Below are positions 6,182 through 22,008 of a DNA stretch of 22,050 nt, piece after piece. Positions within the stretch are counted from its first letter, which is position 1. Each line of letters opens with the position of its first letter. The notes beneath the pieces were generated by a model, which was given only the letters and a program-made list of their open reading frames with translations, had not been told where the DNA came from and made no database searches. Made by a program: the position numbers and the translations under genes. This DNA comes from a virus, in IMG/VR virus record IMGVR_UViG_3300045931_000045, positions 1 to 22,050 of that record; one strand, written 5' to 3'.

Positions 6182-8542
6182 TCACCCAAAATTTCCGAAA
6201 CCAGATGGCGCAGTATGTGCGAATGAAGTCGCGCCAAAATTGGCCGTGACCGTCTCGTTTGCAGTTGCAGCACAAGTCCAAACCACGAAGTATGGTCCGG
6301 CGTTGAGCCCAGAAATGTCAAAACCGCCGGTGTTGGTCGCCGGATTGGCCGCGCCGCTGTTGTTCCAGTTGCCGTTGTTCTTGCGGAACCAGATGCGCTC
6401 GTTGTCCAGGTCGAGCGCCATGTCGATCAGATCGCCGGTGGTGTAGGTTACAATAGTCCCGATGCTGCCAGAATCTAGGAACACCTGCCCCAGGACACTG
6501 TAGTAGCCGACACCATCAGCATCCGCGCCGGGGAAATCGGAGGTGGCTTCAATTGGCAGGCTGGAGTTCGCGAGTCCGATGAAGACGCCACTGCCAGCAA
6601 CGAGGCTAGAAAATTCACAGTAGTATTTTCCAGACGACTTTCCGGCCACCGTCCGGACAGAGTTGTTGCTTGCCCCTTCGATTGATGTGGCAGTCAGATC
6701 GCCGTTGCTCAGATTGATGGACGAGGATTTGTCGGCCGAGTTCCACGTCGTCGATGCCGCTGCTGGCAGCACGGCGTCTGCAAACAGGCTACCAGCACCC
6801 GCCATGCTCACTTGCAGCCGCAGTTTAGATCGCGCCAGCGCTGACAGAACGCCGGCGCCGGCAAACGTCGCATGCAATTGCAGCAGTTCGGCCGGCAATT
6901 GAGCATTCGCTTGCAGCGCGCTTGCCCCGGCGAGCGCGGCCTGCGCTCGAGCGTTCTGCCGCGTCAGCGCAGTGAGAACGCCGCTGCCCCCGAAGATGGC
7001 ATCCAGCGTGTCGACGGACGGCGCAATAATTGACGTGGTTTCGTAGCCGTAAAGTGTAAGGCTTCCGCTTTTCCAGCTTGCCGCGGCACCGAAGCGGAAT
7101 TGCAGACCAGTGATTGCGCCGAGATTCTTCAGCCGTCCGGAACCCTTCGCCGTCGCCATGCCGCCCGGAGTGTTGGCGGCAATCTGCCAGTCGAACAGGA
7201 CATACACCGTCACGCCCAGTGTCGGCGTGCTGAATCTGATCCAGCCATTCAGCGCCACGTCATCGTCGGCGGCCGAGTACAAAACGATCTCGTCATCGGC
7301 CGACGAAGCTGATGCGGTGAGCGAAAACTGAGTACCCTCAGTCCTGTTCCACGCGTAGTCAGCAGTGCCGTCGTTGAAGCCCGGACTGTTGCCGCTCGCC
7401 AGGCGCAGGTTGAACGACTGCCCAGTGAACTGCGGCGTCAGATTGCTGAAGCGAATCTCGTATGCGTTAAACGTGCTGTCGAGGTTTGCCGTGAACTCTG
7501 CAGAGGTGTCGCCGCTATCAATGCTTATGGTTTCCAATTTGCGGCAGCCGTTGTCATATGGAATTGGGCTCTCGCCAGGCAGATATTCCGCATCGATCTC
7601 ACCGCCCGTGCCGATCGGCACATAGCGGCGGACCCGCGATGTCACGCCGTCAGTTACGTCGATCCGGTAAGAGCCGCCCGCGACGTGGAAAAAATATGGG
7701 CCGTCTGCGGCCTCATACTGCTCTGTCGGCGGCGTGAAGTTCGACGTGTGACGCGCCGTCCCGACCGAGATGCGGAACTCGTCAATGTTGCCGGTCCACA
7801 ACTCCGAGAACTCGGTCAGCCCGCCGACGCGAACCTCGGTCGCGCCAGGGTTTACTGTTCCAGAGAACGCAACATCGCCGCCTTGCTGCGCGCCGTCCAC
7901 AAAGAGCTTGAGCGTATTTCCGGTGCGGACGAACTCGACGTGGTGCCAGCCAGGGTTCAGGCTGCTGGTGTATTGGGTTGTCCCGGTGACCGTCGTCGCC
8001 GTCGCTATCGCCGCCACACTGGCGGTAATGACGTTGCCTGCGGTTTTTCTTATCTGCCAGGACGAGTTGCCATGCGCGAGCGTGCTGAACGCCACTTGCT
8101 GCGCGAGAACGCGGGCCGCGCCGCCTGCGTCCTCGGCCAGGAAGCGCAGGTCGATCGTGAAGTCGCCGGCGCCGAGATCGAGATCGTCATACTCGTCAGT
8201 CTCGATCGTGTCATTGAACGAAGTGCCCAGCAACAGCGATGTCCCGAACGCGCCTTCGCTGTCGATCTGCGCCGCGCCGGTTGCCGTCCACGCGCGCGTG
8301 ACGAGCGCGCCGTCGTCGACGATAGACTGCGATCCGATCGCGCCCTCGAAATGCAGAAGCACGTTGGTGAAACTGTCGTTGCCGCCCACCGGCGCGAATG
8401 GATTTGATCGCGCGACCGTTCCCTCACGATCGCTGAACAGGCTGGCGGCCCCGCCGTCCTCGTCCGTGACCGTGACGCTGGTCGGGACAATGACGTCGCC
8501 TTCATCATCGAATTCGCATTCTGAGAACCGCGCCAGCGTCAC
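6182..8542 (-). CDS. Tail fibre / receptor-binding protein with LamG, 20-residue repeats and SPRY domain
   Basis: This 786-residue virion protein starts at GTG 8542, overlapping the previous stop as GTGA. It is modular. Residues 1-50 and 279-320 are two halves of a module found intact in the neighbouring 277-residue protein. Between them, about residues 55-275, lies a LamG/concanavalin-like domain (LHFEG, NPGWHHVEFVRTG, KLFVDG, IDEFRIS-x-GTARH). Residues 335-500 match the second half of the neighbour, ending GSLTLYGYE. Residues 514-590 hold four copies of an AxFAGAGxLSAxA repeat, shared with the repeat protein at 18999-20465. Residues 597-786 form a SPRY domain (GKYYCEFSSL, GVGYYS, DLIDMALDLDNERIWFRKNN, VTANFG). 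Host glycan or receptor binding is the likely task. Confidence 0.75.
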   Translation of the reverse strand: MTLARFSECEFDDEGDVIVPTSVTVTDEDGGAASLFSDREGTVARSNPFAPVGGNDSFTNVLLHFEGAIGSQSIVDDGALVTRAWTATGAAQIDSEGAFGTSLLLGTSFNDTIETDEYDDLDLGAGDFTIDLRFLAEDAGGAARVLAQQVAFSTLAHGNSSWQIRKTAGNVITASVAAIATATTVTGTTQYTSSLNPGWHHVEFVRTGNTLKLFVDGAQQGGDVAFSGTVNPGATEVRVGGLTEFSELWTGNIDEFRISVGTARHTSNFTPPTEQYEAADGPYFFHVAGGSYRIDVTDGVTSRVRRYVPIGTGGEIDAEYLPGESPIPYDNGCRKLETISIDSGDTSAEFTANLDSTFNAYEIRFSNLTPQFTGQSFNLRLASGNSPGFNDGTADYAWNRTEGTQFSLTASASSADDEIVLYSAADDDVALNGWIRFSTPTLGVTVYVLFDWQIAANTPGGMATAKGSGRLKNLGAITGLQFRFGAAASWKSGSLTLYGYETTSIIAPSVDTLDAIFGGSGVLTALTRQNARAQAALAGASALQANAQLPAELLQLHATFAGAGVLSALARSKLRLQVSMAGAGSLFADAVLPAAASTTWNSADKSSSINLSNGDLTATSIEGASNNSVRTVAGKSSGKYYCEFSSLVAGSGVFIGLANSSLPIEATSDFPGADADGVGYYSVLGQVFLDSGSIGTIVTYTTGDLIDMALDLDNERIWFRKNNGNWNNSGAANPATNTGGFDISGLNAGPYFVVWTCAATANETVTANFGATSFAHTAPSGFGNFG
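6773..7003 (-). repeat. Four copies of the same 20-residue repeat inside the tail fibre gene
   Basis: Residues 514-590 of the 786-residue fibre consist of four units (AIFGGSGVLTAL, AALAGASALQAN, ATFAGAGVLSAL, SMAGAGSLFADA, each followed by 8-11 variable residues). They match the consensus of the 19-copy array at 19143-20381, so both proteins share one repeat family. Confidence 0.75.
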
Positions 8543-16530: not shown

Positions 16531-18576
16531 CTACGTCCCGTTGTTCGACCGCGCTATTTCCAGCCACGCGCTGAGAGCGACGCTGTAAACTAGCGTGATA
16601 GTGTCTTCTTCGTTATCGAGTACCATGTCGCCGGCCAATTTGAGATTTCCCGTGCCATCCTTGAGGGTAACGGTGCGGGCAGAATTGGCGGCGCGGAGAA
16701 TGAGTAATTCGCAGACTCCTAGGGATGGGGTGATCGTGTCCAGATCGTCGGACGCGGCATCGGCTTCAGTGTCGACGGTATGAAACGACTGCGTTTGAGA
16801 GATGACTCCAGATGCGATGGTCCGCTCGGACTCACCCAGATAAAATGCGAGCGGCCCACTGCATAATGTTCGACCGCTAATGATTGTATTAGCGCCTGGA
16901 ATAGTGATTCCACTTCCTCCAAAAATTATCTGGTCAACACCCCCACTCGCCAGCGTTGGTGTTCCGCCGCCGCTTGGGTTGTCATATAGCCTGAACTTGC
17001 TAGTCGCACCCTTTTTTGCCTCTATATAGGTGAAGTCCGTTGGCGCAGCCGACGATGCATTAACTTGCAAGTATCCTGTTGTGTTTGTCGTTGGTGGCGT
17101 TGCGCTGTCGCCTGCTGCCCCCACATCAGCATAAGATGGCGTAGTCGGCAGCAGCGACGAATTGTTCAGAAGCGGATAAACATCCTGATCAACCGTCGCG
17201 ATCAATCCAGTTGTGTTGGTTACGGTGCCCCCAGCGACGGTGCGATAAATTCTGTAACCGCCAACCGCGCCCTCGACGGGCGTCCATGTGACCAAGTTAT
17301 TTTGATTGTCCTGAGATAGATCATCAAAGCCAACGGCAGTGCTTACCTCCGCAGACGATTGCGATGTGAGACCATCCGCGAGAACGGCAACGACTTTATA
17401 AGCATAGGTTTTACTGCCGCCGCCAACACATTGGTACTGCCCAAGGCACCCGGTTTGAACGCTGGTAATGGTTGGAACACCGAGAGCCTGGATATCCACG
17501 CGCCCATTGATTGCGCCGCCGAGCGTGAGATTGTCCCCGAACTGAACCACACCATCGCCAGTGCGGATGGCCATGCTCAGATTAAGCGCTGCTTCCATGT
17601 CTGGGATATTGATCCCGATATTGTTGATCACATTGCCCGCGTCAATCTTGTTCTCAAACCATCCCGCTATGGCATTGGCGGTATGGCTCTCGACTTTGAC
17701 ACACCCACCAATACCGACGCCGATCTTATTCGATAATGCAATAATGTTCTGATTGAGATAAACCCGACCCAGAACACCAGAAACGCCCCCGGCCGTATCG
17801 ATCGGATCGAATTCATTCACGGAGCAATAGCCATTTGTGAATACGGTGAACAAGCCACCAATCGCACCATCGCCAACAACCCCACCGCCGCCTGGATTGC
17901 CCATGGACGCCGTACCCATTACTCCGCAAGTCGGATTGGTGCTTCCTGCAGAACCTTCACGATGCAACCGATATGCAGAGAACCGTCCTCCAACCAGCCA
18001 AGCTAGAACGGTATCGCTGTCTGATGAGACGGTTCCGGATACGCCGCAATACATTGAACCGTGGTTGTCAACGTCGGTGCTTGGAGTCACCTCCGTATGA
18101 AACGACGGTCCGATAAATTCGAGTTCATCAGGAGCCGGGGCCGGACCAGTAAATTCCCAACGCAGGTCGAATGGAGACTTAAAAACTCGATCGCCAGCCA
18201 ATTGGGTGCCCGCATTGTCAAACGAAATGACGTACTGGGTTGGACTATCTTGAACATAAAGTGCCCCCGTGCCTCCGTTATCAGCAGCCGCGGAATTGAT
18301 CCAACCATCCGAAGAAGTCCTAACCGCAAATCCAGCATCAGAACCGAGCGACGCGTCAAGGTCTGGATCGAGATTATCCAATCGACTGTCGAGCGTTGCC
18401 GACATTGTTTCGAGCGCATCAAGCCGCGCGTCAGCGTCGGTAAAACCCGTGTCGTGCGTATCAAGCCGGCCCTCTACATCCGAGAAGCCGCTGTTGATCT
18501 TGCCGCCAGCGGTTCGGAGCGTATCACCAGTGCCGTCGTCCGGAGTAGAGCCGATATTGATTGGATCGTAACTCAT
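16531..18576 (-). CDS. Large fibre-like virion protein within the head-tail joining region
   Basis: The 681-residue protein starts MSYDPINIGSTPDDGTGDTL, leads into a helical, heptad-like stretch (about residues 30-75, DVEGRLDTHDTGFTDADARL), and is then dominated by glycine-rich β-sequence. A fibronectin-like segment (KTYAYKVVAVLADGLTSQSS, residues about 390-415) lies in the middle, followed by a β-rich C-terminus. That C-terminus (YLGESERTIASGVISQTQSF, then EADAASDDLDTI, ILRAANSARTVTLKDG, WLEIARS) resembles an end module found on many phage appendage proteins. It overlaps the head-closure stop by ATGA and abuts the DUF3168 gene. It may be a head or neck fibre, as its location suggests, rather than a tail-tip fibre. 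I cannot assign a receptor or enzyme activity. Confidence 0.55.
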   Translation of the reverse strand: MSYDPINIGSTPDDGTGDTLRTAGGKINSGFSDVEGRLDTHDTGFTDADARLDALETMSATLDSRLDNLDPDLDASLGSDAGFAVRTSSDGWINSAAADNGGTGALYVQDSPTQYVISFDNAGTQLAGDRVFKSPFDLRWEFTGPAPAPDELEFIGPSFHTEVTPSTDVDNHGSMYCGVSGTVSSDSDTVLAWLVGGRFSAYRLHREGSAGSTNPTCGVMGTASMGNPGGGGVVGDGAIGGLFTVFTNGYCSVNEFDPIDTAGGVSGVLGRVYLNQNIIALSNKIGVGIGGCVKVESHTANAIAGWFENKIDAGNVINNIGINIPDMEAALNLSMAIRTGDGVVQFGDNLTLGGAINGRVDIQALGVPTITSVQTGCLGQYQCVGGGSKTYAYKVVAVLADGLTSQSSAEVSTAVGFDDLSQDNQNNLVTWTPVEGAVGGYRIYRTVAGGTVTNTTGLIATVDQDVYPLLNNSSLLPTTPSYADVGAAGDSATPPTTNTTGYLQVNASSAAPTDFTYIEAKKGATSKFRLYDNPSGGGTPTLASGGVDQIIFGGSGITIPGANTIISGRTLCSGPLAFYLGESERTIASGVISQTQSFHTVDTEADAASDDLDTITPSLGVCELLILRAANSARTVTLKDGTGNLKLAGDMVLDNEEDTITLVYSVALSAWLEIARSNNGT

Positions 18577-18998: not shown

Positions 18999-20465
18999 TC
19001 ATCCGCGTCGCTGCGTGTTGTGCCGGCGCGCGCTCTGTGTGTTCGATCGGCGACCGCTGGAAACTTGAGGAGAGCGCGAGATGGTGTTTTCGTTGGCGGG
19101 CGAGAACACGCGGACGCTACCCTCGCGCAGTGGGATTGCGCGGACCCGTTCAGTATCAACCGAGAGCGTGCCGGACCCAGCAAAGACGGCATGTATTTGC
19201 TGATGGCTGATTACGGTAACGCTGAGCGCCCCGTCGCCACTGAACGTCGCTGCCGCCGCCGCGCCAACCACCGCGCGCGCAGACATCGCGCCACTGCCGG
19301 CGAATGTGGCCTGCGCAAGTTTGTTTTGCGCCTGAACCGATAGCGAGCCGGAACCGTTGAACCTCGCCGCGGCCAGCTTGACAACATACGCGTCAGCCGA
19401 AAACGAGCCGAGGCCCAGGAACCGCGCGGCGATGGCGGCCCGCAGCGTGGCGAGCGCCGACAGCGAGCCAACGCCGTCAAAGCGCGCGGCGGCTGAAAGC
19501 CGAAGCCGCGCCAGCGCCGATAGATTTCCAACGCCATCGAAGCGCGCCGAGATGCTGGCGCGCACCGTCGCAAGGACGGATAACGAGCCAGCGCCGTTGA
19601 AGGTGGCTTCGCCGAGTTGAATGCCAGCCTGAACGGCCTGGGCCGAAAGGTTGCCAGTGCCGTTGAAGATTGCAGCGGCTTGCTGGCGCGATGTCGTGTT
19701 GATCGACATCGAGCCAGCGCCGTTGAAGATCGCGCTGGCCTGAAAGCGGGCGGCAACCAGGGCAGAGAGGCTGCCGGCACCTGCGAATATTGCCTCACCA
19801 AAATGCCGGCCGGCCAGGACGGCATCGGCCGATACATTACCGGCACCGTTGAATATTGCAGCCGCTGCGTGGCCTTGCGTAACGTTGGCGGAAAGATTGC
19901 CAGCACCCGCAAACGTCGCTTCCGCGGTCTTGGATTTCTGCGCATTGACGGACAAAGCGCCGCCGCCGGCAAATCGCGCCTCGGCAAACTGTTGCGCTAC
20001 CGCGAACTCAACCTCGACAAACGAGACGACCGCATAAGTATCCGCAGTCGTTTGCCCGTCCGCTGAGAGCGAGCCAGCGCCGTTGAATGTGGAAGCCGCG
20101 CCATGTGCCTGGCTTGCAGCCGCCTGCAGCGAGCCAGCACCCTCTAAAGTCGCCGCCGCCGTTTTCGATTTACCGGCATCAGCGGAAACGGTGCCGATGC
20201 CATCAAATCTTGCAGCCGCTTGGTACGTTTGCTGCGTGGCAACCGACAGTGAGCCTGCGCCGTCTAACCTCCCTTCCCCTGAATATGCGAGCGCAAATTG
20301 AATCTCGACAAACGAGACGATAGCGCTGGCGCTTTGGGTTGTATCAGCCGACAGCGAGCCAGCGCCATTAAAGCGCGGCGTTACCGAATGCCTCAGATTT
20401 TCGTCGGCGCTGAAACCGCCGACAAGATCAGTGCCGGACGCTGTGCTGAGAGTTCTCAGCGCCAT
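18999..20465 (-). CDS. Repeat protein: 19 copies of a ~20-residue FxGxGSLSA unit
   Basis: After a 28-residue N-terminus, the 488-residue protein consists of about 19 tandem repeats (residues 29-441) of the form A-R/T/I-F-x-G-x-G-S/N-L-S-A/V, followed by 8-10 variable residues. Two copies carry an insertion with VSFVEIQFALA / VSFVEVEFAVA (first and fifth). Period 20 with conserved Phe, Gly and Ser-Leu-Ser suggests a regular β-solenoid or stacked-turn rod. The C-terminal 47 residues (RSPQVSSGRRSNTQSARRHN) are basic and low-complexity. Four related units occur in the tail fibre at 6182-8542. It starts at ATG 20465, four bases after the previous stop. It is probably a virion surface or fibre-shaft protein; the function is unknown. 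Confidence 0.6.
   Translation of the reverse strand: MALRTLSTASGTDLVGGFSADENLRHSVTPRFNGAGSLSADTTQSASAIVSFVEIQFALAYSGEGRLDGAGSLSVATQQTYQAAARFDGIGTVSADAGKSKTAAATLEGAGSLQAAASQAHGAASTFNGAGSLSADGQTTADTYAVVSFVEVEFAVAQQFAEARFAGGGALSVNAQKSKTAEATFAGAGNLSANVTQGHAAAAIFNGAGNVSADAVLAGRHFGEAIFAGAGSLSALVAARFQASAIFNGAGSMSINTTSRQQAAAIFNGTGNLSAQAVQAGIQLGEATFNGAGSLSVLATVRASISARFDGVGNLSALARLRLSAAARFDGVGSLSALATLRAAIAARFLGLGSFSADAYVVKLAAARFNGSGSLSVQAQNKLAQATFAGSGAMSARAVVGAAAAATFSGDGALSVTVISHQQIHAVFAGSGTLSVDTERVRAIPLREGSVRVFSPANENTISRSPQVSSGRRSNTQSARRHNTQRRG
19143..20381 (-). repeat. Coding tandem repeat array, 19 units of about 60 bp
   Basis: The DNA encoding the FxGxGSLSA units repeats with a 60-base period, for example the plus-strand gccgttgaa(g/t) and gagccagcgcc segments that recur at about 19570-20100. 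Copies differ mainly at third positions and in the variable half, so the array is old rather than freshly expanded. Two units have an inserted stretch of about 48 bases. Confidence 0.8.
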
Positions 20466-20469
20466 AGCA

Positions 20470-20853
20470 TCAGCTCAGCGTGATCTTCATCTGTGCCGCG
20501 GCGGCAATGACGATCGTGTCATTGCTGGCCATGCCGACCGACGCGCCGAATGTGCCGTACATCAGACGCTGCCCGCCGCTCGACGAGTTCCACATGTTCC
20601 AACCCACCGCAGTCATGATGGCAGTGGATGTGCCCTGCGGCGAGGCCGAACTGAGAATCGTTGCCGACATCTGCGGCGAGTTGGCCGCGGCGTATTTCAG
20701 CGTGCCGCGCGAACGGAACGGGCCGTCAAATGCCGATTGTGTCGTTGGCGACTGCGTGGCGTATGAAACCCAGCGCGAACCCGGCTGCGTCGCCGCTGCG
20801 CCGCCGAGCACCCAATCGAGCAGAAGTTTACGCGCGAATGGATCGAGCGGCAC
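20470..20853 (-). CDS. Small virion β-sandwich protein (Gp80-like fold by pattern), GTG start
   Basis: The 127-residue protein begins (GTG) MPLDPFARKLLLDWVLGGAA, a helix followed by a β-rich body: RWVSYATQSPTTQSAFDGPF, TLKYAAANSPQMSATILSSA, MTAVGWNMWNSSSGGQRLMY, and a final AAAQMKITLS. Helix plus LLDWLLG, then a jelly-roll with an xVGWxxW-x-S strand and a KITL end, is the layout of small phage fibre or decoration proteins such as mycobacteriophage Gp80-like proteins. It lies between two larger fibre-like genes and may decorate capsid or tail. GTG 20853 is four bases after the stop of the gene upstream. Confidence 0.5.
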   Translation of the reverse strand: MPLDPFARKLLLDWVLGGAAATQPGSRWVSYATQSPTTQSAFDGPFRSRGTLKYAAANSPQMSATILSSASPQGTSTAIMTAVGWNMWNSSSGGQRLMYGTFGASVGMASNDTIVIAAAAQMKITLS

Positions 20854-20856
20854 GAA

Positions 20857-22008
20857 TCACACCGCCCCAACTGCCTGCAGATAGGGCAGCAGTGCGTCGT
20901 AGAGTTCACCCTGCTCTGTTGAGTTCAGCGATGATCCAATACCGCCAGCCGACAACTCCCAGGCACTGTTGGCAATGCCGCTCTCGCCTTTCAAAAACAC
21001 AATATTTTCATTATTCGGCGCTGAAGAAGTTTCAGGAAAATCATCAACGTCAGTACCATTCCGATACAGTTGTGAATTGCTTGAGTCTGTACGATTGACG
21101 GAAAAAAGCGCAATCGTGGTGGAAGGCGACGACTCATTACTGCTGGAGTTGGAATTACATGCAAAATACGTCTGCCCGCTGAAATTTACATATATCCTGA
21201 GGCCCGCCGCACCAGAGACATATCCGATTGCATCGGCTGGTGCTACAGAGCCCGGATTCGTTCTGTTCCAGGCGAACACGCACGCGCTATTTTGAGTAAA
21301 ATGCGGACTACCTGATGTCGGATTGAATCCTGTGTCGAGATATCCCGTCCCATCATCGCTATTGAAACCGCGATCGGCGGTAAAGTCTGGCGCACTGACC
21401 GCAGTGATACCAAAGCTCGACGATTTCAGATTTGTGAGCGCAGTCGAGCTATCAGGAGCCGCAAACAGATAAAGCGCGTCGAGCTTGGCCCATATCCCAG
21501 CGCTGACGAGCGCGTCGATTGCGTCTGCATACAAATTCTTTCTGGTCGTGCCTGGATCGGAAATCCGATCGAAGAATTGTTGCGCCTCATCGGAATAAAC
21601 AACTCCGGGATTTGCCGTCAACTCAATGTAGAGATCGTTGAAATCACTGATCGCCGAGAACTGCGGCGATGTCAGCGTCTGCTCACCATCGACGTATGAC
21701 GTGGTAATATCGTCATGCGACCACGCTGCGATCTCAGTAGCGCCCTGCAGCAGGCGCACTTGCAGATCGATCGTATCGGTACCGACTTTTTTGTACCGAT
21801 ATCTCACCTTCATCGGCTGTTGCGGAGCCGAGCCGGGATTGCTCAGCCGAAGCTTGCAGGCGTCATTCGACGGATTGCTCGATGAGCGGATGAAATCGGA
21901 ATCGCTGGCGCTGGTCTCGTCGACCTTGTCGAACAGCGTAGTGCCGCCCGACTGATCGGTCCAGCCGCCATCCGTATCATCAGCATCCGGACGCAGATAA
22001 TCCGGCAT
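20857..22008 (-). CDS. Fibre-like virion protein with lectin-like (ConA-type) domain
   Basis: The 383-residue protein has an N-terminal β-sandwich (residues 1-140, starting MPDYLRPDADDTDGGWTDQS, with KVRYRYKKVGTDTIDLQVRL). After it comes a short helical linker (TRKNLYADAIDALVSAGIWA) and a ConA/LamG-like second domain (DALYLFAAPDSSTALTNLKS, DRGFNSDDGTGYLDTGFNP, VFAWNRTNPG, QLYRNGTDVDDF) ending with a helix (STEQGELYDALLPYLQ). I recognise the linker and second-domain pattern from Rhizobiales prophage structural proteins. Carbohydrate binding is plausible, but no ligand residue is proven. It is the first complete gene of the late block in this window. Confidence 0.6.
   Translation of the reverse strand: MPDYLRPDADDTDGGWTDQSGGTTLFDKVDETSASDSDFIRSSSNPSNDACKLRLSNPGSAPQQPMKVRYRYKKVGTDTIDLQVRLLQGATEIAAWSHDDITTSYVDGEQTLTSPQFSAISDFNDLYIELTANPGVVYSDEAQQFFDRISDPGTTRKNLYADAIDALVSAGIWAKLDALYLFAAPDSSTALTNLKSSSFGITAVSAPDFTADRGFNSDDGTGYLDTGFNPTSGSPHFTQNSACVFAWNRTNPGSVAPADAIGYVSGAAGLRIYVNFSGQTYFACNSNSSSNESSPSTTIALFSVNRTDSSNSQLYRNGTDVDDFPETSSAPNNENIVFLKGESGIANSAWELSAGGIGSSLNSTEQGELYDALLPYLQAVGAV

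Follow-up and report, generated by a model that had tools for sequence, protein, structure and literature searches.

Introduction

Little is understood about the fibres of phage necks and collars, and annotation is missing for most of their genes. In the podophage GP4, fiber I is reported to be built from dimers of gp80 that an elongated "rope" protein links together. The fibre lies near the head-tail connection, and gp80 itself is represented by a Pfam family (PF23140) and by a structure (PDB 8jou). Anabaena phage A-1(L) has a beaded neck fibre (gp82-gp81-gp80) of about 100 nm with 16 beads and a distal carbohydrate-binding module, for which host binding was not detected; no rope is known for this fibre, whose beads connect head and tail, and its genes stand at a distance from other structural genes (PMC10966104). 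Collars without fibres also exist, as in Milano (PMC10491603). In LSH1, gp34-gp35-gp36 include an adhesin-bearing protein whose beta-helical, possibly repetitive part is poorly predicted and whose gene stands beside a gp80-type fibril gene; the repeats are left undefined there, and the genes come after the lysis module (PMC13243795).

Two protein families outside the neck fibres also resemble the protein described here. DUF2807 head-GIN adhesins (PF10988) share with it a GxGxL-type turn motif, a similar predicted coil length and a match in sequence profile and predicted fold. They are adhesins of cells, and their Pfam domain spans 181 positions, whereas REP (the protein described here) belongs to a phage and its copy number is open-ended. 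Curli CsgA, like the AlphaFold2 model described below, has two strands per coil of about 20 residues.

The window analysed here is the whole 22,050-base stretch of a virus record, from a soil phage. It encodes a 488-residue protein, called REP below, consisting mostly of 20-residue repeats. As in several relatives of GP4, the gene that comes after a gp80-family gene encodes a protein with a period of 20 residues. The units differ, being FxGxGxLS in REP and alternating hydrophobic residues with RR in the GP4-type partners, as do the copy numbers (6 to 40 in REP proteins against 5 to about 10 in the partners, units read by eye). In contrast to LSH1, the motif, period and relatives are defined for REP and its gene lies among head-tail genes. 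An uncharacterised repeat family is thus tied, by gene linkage, to one solved fibre component. We consider it somewhat probable that REP forms the backbone of a neck or collar appendage resembling fiber I.

The repeat protein and its gene neighbourhood

The features of the window that are needed here are as follows.

20857..22008, minus strand: LamG-like protein (concanavalin A fold), candidate tip adhesin, upstream of the gp80-family gene (Laminin_G_3 21.2 bits, below the cut-off of 27.6; phrog_26223, 3.3e-20)
20470..20853, minus strand: gp80-family protein (PF23140, Podophage GP4 fiber I), 127 residues, ending 5 nt ahead of REP (39.8 bits; cut-off 27)
18999..20465, minus strand: REP gene, 488 residues, ATG start (open reading frame list and repeat analysis)
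19125..20375, minus strand: 19 FxGxGxLS repeats of period 20, about residues 31-447 (repeat and lag analysis; two strands per repeat in the AlphaFold2 model)
20271..20330, minus strand: first insert, VSFVEIQFA, between repeats 1 and 2, about residues 46-65, spacing 35 (translation)
19974..20036, minus strand: second insert, VSFVEVEFA, between repeats 5 and 6, about residues 144-164, spacing 38 (translation)
19002..19142, minus strand: basic C-terminal tail of REP, residues 442-488, resembling the tail of the unlike repeat protein that occupies the REP slot in a related phage (L003)
18573..18995, minus strand: head completion or head closure protein, the gene after REP (PF05521, E 3.6e-17; phrog_25, head closure Hc1)
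16531..18576, minus strand: 681-residue protein, between the head completion and DUF3168-type genes
6740..6997, minus strand: three further FxGxGxL repeats, inside a LamG plus SPRY-like protein (6182-8542)

A regular-expression search found 19 copies of G-x-G-x-L/V/M/F-S/Q at residues 34-430, after two off-register matches (46 and 404) were discarded. Identity at lag 20 is 0.335 against a shuffle maximum of 0.174 (64 lags, 1000 shuffles); in a separate lag test the z-score at lag 20 is 26, reached by 0 of 300 shuffles. The first-pass annotation had described a 19-copy period-20 repeat protein, 85 percent of it filled by repeats; these figures agree with that description, the repeats occupying about residues 31-447. 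It had also called the period strict, which does not hold: only 13 of the 18 spacings are exactly 20, the remaining five being 35, 38, 22, 22 and 19, and the two long gaps carry one VSFVE[IV][QE]FA insert apiece. The composition is rich in Ala, Gly and Ser. An alternating A-x-F-x-G-x-G-x-L-S-A pattern is kept across diverged phages, and the register stays at 20 in otherwise diverged copies. Tandem Repeats Finder detected no tandem array at the DNA level, so the repeat copies are old or have diverged in their DNA. The basic tail noted earlier is also present: the last 48 residues hold 10 K/R against 2 D/E and have a pI of 12.

The placing of the gene in the head-tail joining region is upheld by its neighbour, since REP ends 3 nt before a gene for a Phage_HCP head completion protein. 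Reading downstream on the minus strand, the order is LamG-like protein, gp80 family, REP, Phage_HCP, the 681-residue protein and the neck genes. After the 681-residue protein come DUF3168-type and HK97-gp10-type neck proteins, the major tail protein, a chaperone and the tape measure; the DUF3168, major tail, chaperone and tape measure names are our presumed reading of the sequence and gene order. The first 38 residues of the 681-residue protein resemble a baseplate wedge tail-fibre connector (phrog_677, 1.6e-6). Its gene appears to be fast-evolving too, because identity to L003 is 70 percent, against 98 percent for the next gene. Among the tail genes, 6182-8542 (minus strand) encodes a 786-residue protein in which LamG-like and SPRY-like ends are linked by the three further repeats.

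Relatives and linkage to gp80

As a single sequence REP matched no PDB entry, and it matched no PHROG. Peptides unique to REP retrieved no viral relatives, whereas repeat-block alignments did. Repeat-only scans returned 54 loci; after removal of duplicates sharing a 30-mer, of L104 (on the same contig as L027) and of L105 and L106 (no REP open reading frame at 1e-15), 25 unique IMG/VR loci were left, 5 of them without upstream DNA. Microbacterium phage Magritte was the one record with a REP match among 50,697 phages.

A gp80-family gene lies at most 4.1 kb upstream of REP in 17 of the 20 independent loci with upstream sequence (about 1 kb to over 5 kb of it), and at most 600 nt upstream in 13 of the 20. 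L028 and L090 carry REP with no gp80 gene in about 5 kb upstream, and none was found within the 1.4 kb of upstream DNA of L019. Magritte, an isolated phage, has a weak gp80-family gene (E 3e-4) just upstream of its repeat-protein gene, within gp25-gp27. On the other side, a head-tail adaptor gene stands directly 3' of REP in L015, L019, L023 and L102, and 276 nt further in L103.

The number of repeats varies among relatives, with 6 motif copies in L010, 24 in L009 and 40 in L015. Several relatives have additional N-terminal parts, namely glycine-rich regions in L013, L021 and L026 and a LamG domain ahead of the repeats in L028 (78 bits, above the cut-off). L028 has two REP genes in tandem, and in L021 REP adjoins a lysozyme gene. 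The repeat module is not confined to the neck, given the lysozyme neighbour in L021 and the repeats in the tail-cluster protein of the window.

A 20-residue period in gp80 partners

An alignment of 17 gp80-family sequences matches PDB 8jou_a (E 2.5e-8), a sequence listed with 10 chains. The gp80-family profile did not match the PDB entry of the A-1(L) neck fibre. GP4-related phages were found by tblastn with the letters of 8jou_a, and the partner gene family in these relatives is phrog_19041. Annotations of the gene that immediately follows gp80 differ: virion structural for BcepMigl, virion-associated for BcepIL02, and hypothetical or unknown for other phages. In the available report on JC1, the gp80 homologue gp53 is found in virions by mass spectrometry with 59 percent coverage, and the partner product gp54 is not among the virion proteins (PMC9144972). 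The gp80 homologue phiM5_17 carries the annotation "detected in phage particle proteome".

Periodicity was tested in nine genes next to gp80 in phages or prophages (PBC5, Atu_ph08, L038, L070, POI1126, BcepIL02, BcepMigl, Itty13 and phiM5_18), L038 and L070 being a genome locus and its viral relative. In these nine, which were selected after the first lag-test result had been seen, a periodicity of 19-21 residues was reached by 0-14 of 1000 shuffles, and lag 20 was among the top three lags in all nine. Among 56 other proteins of the same phage stretches, 4 reached a like threshold (Fisher 2e-8 for 9/9 against 4/56) and 8 had lag 20 in the top three. A further nine gp80-next genes were tested alike (Hocus_34, CRP4_54, Lietuvens_27, L037, L039, L040, L041, L043 and L045), and two show the period at no more than 14 of 1000 shuffles: CRP4_54 and L045, the latter in a gene not directly adjacent to gp80. 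The partners in PBC5, Atu_ph08 and L038 have five units each when read by eye.

The partners are not alike REP in sequence. Alignment of partner repeats with REP repeats by hhalign was not significant, and the score between the REP and partner unit profiles was reached by 100 of 5000 permutations. Because the unit sequences are not demonstrably homologous, the common period may reflect a shared physical register or a coincidence of fold. The C-terminal tail motif of the partners is absent from most REP tails, and a tail motif shared by both, which was considered, is unsupported, the tail test of L081 also being weak. A PDB search with the BcepMigl partner, from a relative of GP4, found no GP4 partner chain. 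In the Sporosarcina phage Lietuvens, the gp80 homologue lies among baseplate genes, and the gene after it (L034, 6403-7326) encodes about 120 N-terminal residues followed by a Mu Gp48-like baseplate domain (PF10076), which may indicate a physical link of this gp80 partner to the baseplate.

Predicted fold of the repeats and resemblance to DUF2807

AlphaFold2 models the whole of REP (15 aligned sequences) at pLDDT 64 as an all-beta protein with two strands per 20-residue repeat, the C-terminal tail and the insert regions falling below 50. A fragment of eight repeats (38 aligned sequences) reaches pLDDT 82 and pTM 0.67 with no residue below 50. With the fragment as query, the top match in VIA-align is 3lyc (Z 13.5, 2.6 A, 158 residues), other beta-helices lying within about one Z unit. 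For the whole model the top match is curli CsgA (8c50_A), at Z 29.3 but with an rmsd of 8.5 A and 10 percent identity; a Pfam scan of REP, reporting matches up to E 1, shows no curlin domain. Foldseek found no PDB match with E below 0.001 for model or fragment. A search of the viral structure library matched one protein of an uncultured phage (E 6e-4, TMq 0.83), and a protein of Roseobacter phage CRP-5, which also has a gp80 homologue, follows at E 0.06.

The repeat profile has four PDB matches, 3jx8 (2.7e-4) and 3pet, 3lyc and 4opw (0.055-0.14), all of which we take to be DUF2807 proteins. The DUF2807 cut-off is passed by 3 of the 10 relatives scanned (L009, L018 and L030), while REP of the window stays below it (21.0 against 24.2). 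The nearest relatives in sequence profile and predicted fold are DUF2807 beta-helix adhesins, and the earlier statement that the repeats match no known family is corrected to that extent. The proposed beta-solenoid is a tentative reading, supported by the two strands per coil and the match to 3lyc, AlphaFold2 being biased in its favour. According to one study, AlphaFold2 predicts confident but unrealistic solenoids for repeats (PMC11795689), and the LSH1 authors express similar doubt about the predicted structure of gp34 (PMC13243795). AlphaFold2 favours a rigid beta-solenoid over an extended rope carrying gp80 beads, but it over-predicts solenoids for repeats.

The repeat profile was also run against candidate host genomes. 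It matched 0 of 397 genomes in the order of a Hyphomicrobiales MAG (L035), with a positive control matching 6 of 6 records. In the phylum of that genome it matched 9 of 398, and the best match in each was DUF2807, so a host genome carrying REP was not found among these 398. The MAG itself holds two adjacent major-tail-protein-like genes (L035, 9445-10420) that are 43 and 46 percent identical to that of the window.

Exchange of the protein body in close relatives

Loci L003-L007 come from a few related samples and were counted as one phage. Identity to the window is 84 percent in the head completion protein, 98.6 in the DUF3168-type protein, 99 in the major tail protein and 96 in the tape measure protein where sequence covers it. 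The REP slot of this phage holds a 521-residue protein with quite different repeats (327 residues are covered in L004), and over the compared stretch the DNA similarity between window and L003 ends at the boundary of the head completion gene. The body of the L003 slot protein resembles REP only at chance level (score reached by 99 of 300 shuffles). Its C-terminal tail resembles the REP tail with a local score of 61, a value found in 0 of 2000 shuffles. Of 16 other tails, 15 are no more like the window's tail than chance, so tail retention is seen in one pair.

In L018, the first 200 residues or so are closely similar to the L003 slot protein, but the body consists of FxGxGxL repeats. N-terminal domain, repeat body and tail thus appear to recombine, since L003 and the window share a tail type and L003 and L018 share an N-terminal part with different bodies. 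If near-identical phages keep the C-terminal tail of this protein and exchange its body, they could vary surface binding in this way and leave the tail tip untouched. A fusion of the head completion protein with a LamG-type protein was considered, because phrog_10356 spans the head completion protein as well as part of the L018 protein, and was rejected, three records showing separate genes. An N-terminal domain of about 130 residues holding D-GGWTDQ is common to the LamG-like protein of the window (20857-22008, minus strand), L003 3658-4125 and L018 986-2245, and their C-terminal parts differ.

A possible neck-fibre backbone

The reading that we regard as somewhat probable is that REP is the shaft or "rope" of a neck or collar appendage like GP4 fiber I, anchored by its C-terminal tail. 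The basic tail would dock on the virion near the head-tail junction, and the repeat array would project outward from there. The gp80-family protein would form beads on the array or along it, and a distal lectin-like domain would bind surface glycans. Candidates for this domain are the neighbouring LamG protein in the window and the lectin, glycine-rich or other domains fused to the N-terminus in relatives. Since repeat number differs between phages, it may set the length of the fibre. An external location of REP on the virion has a fair probability. The first-pass annotation had suggested a rod-like head or neck decoration, which is plausible in kind, and the gp80 linkage suggests, more specifically, the backbone of a fibre or neck fibril.

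An unlikely competitor is that REP is a beta-solenoid rod or spike standing free on the head or neck, with a fold related to that of DUF2807 head-GIN adhesins and with gp80 a mere neighbour. Such a rod would be about 9 nm long for 19 coils at 4.8 A. It draws on the AlphaFold2 models of REP and of the fragment, on the 3lyc match, on the four PDB profile matches, on the relatives that pass the DUF2807 cut-off and on the DUF2807 best matches in the nine phylum genomes. It leaves the gp80 linkage in 17 of 20 loci unexplained; the known solenoid bias for repeats (PMC11795689), the Foldseek result and the score of the window protein below the DUF2807 cut-off also tell against it. The same linkage, together with the adaptor genes 3' of REP in five loci, makes it improbable that the repeats are a generic spacer, exchangeable among fibre-like phage proteins of any kind and specially tied neither to the neck nor to gp80, although their presence between LamG and SPRY-like domains in 6182-8542, beside lysozyme in L021 and in the tandem pair of L028 would suit a spacer.

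Two further explanations were considered. Mostly disordered, low-complexity filler kept only for bulk would account for the Ala/Gly/Ser-rich composition and the low pLDDT of tail and inserts, but the conserved alternating pattern, the constant register in diverged copies and the fragment model with no pLDDT below 50 make it very improbable. It is hardly credible that REP sits inside the head and uses its basic tail (pI 12) to bind DNA: while the gene does lie among head-completion genes, its linkage to gp80 fibre genes and the lectin-type domains that are fused to the repeats or encoded nearby (LamG in L028; glycine-rich regions in L013, L021 and L026) fit an external role.

An extension of the backbone reading, possible though rather doubtful, is that the 20-residue repeat is a bead-binding register common to all gp80 partners, with one gp80 protomer or dimer per repeat, and that copy number is a genetically encoded ruler of neck-fibre length. 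If so, the window would encode about 19 beads, and an extended chain (about 6.5 nm per 20 residues) would give a fibre of the order of 100 nm, not a 9 nm rod. The REP repeats may also account for the repeat-like stretch that stands beside adhesin domains in LSH1 and was poorly predicted there (PMC13243795).

Around REP in ten loci (L009, L010, L011, L015, L016, L019, L020, L023, L024 and L027), glycosyltransferase-like, methyltransferase-like and other sugar-modifying-like genes are interleaved with virion genes. Their identity is assumed from our own reading of the sequence, and they might modify fibre proteins.
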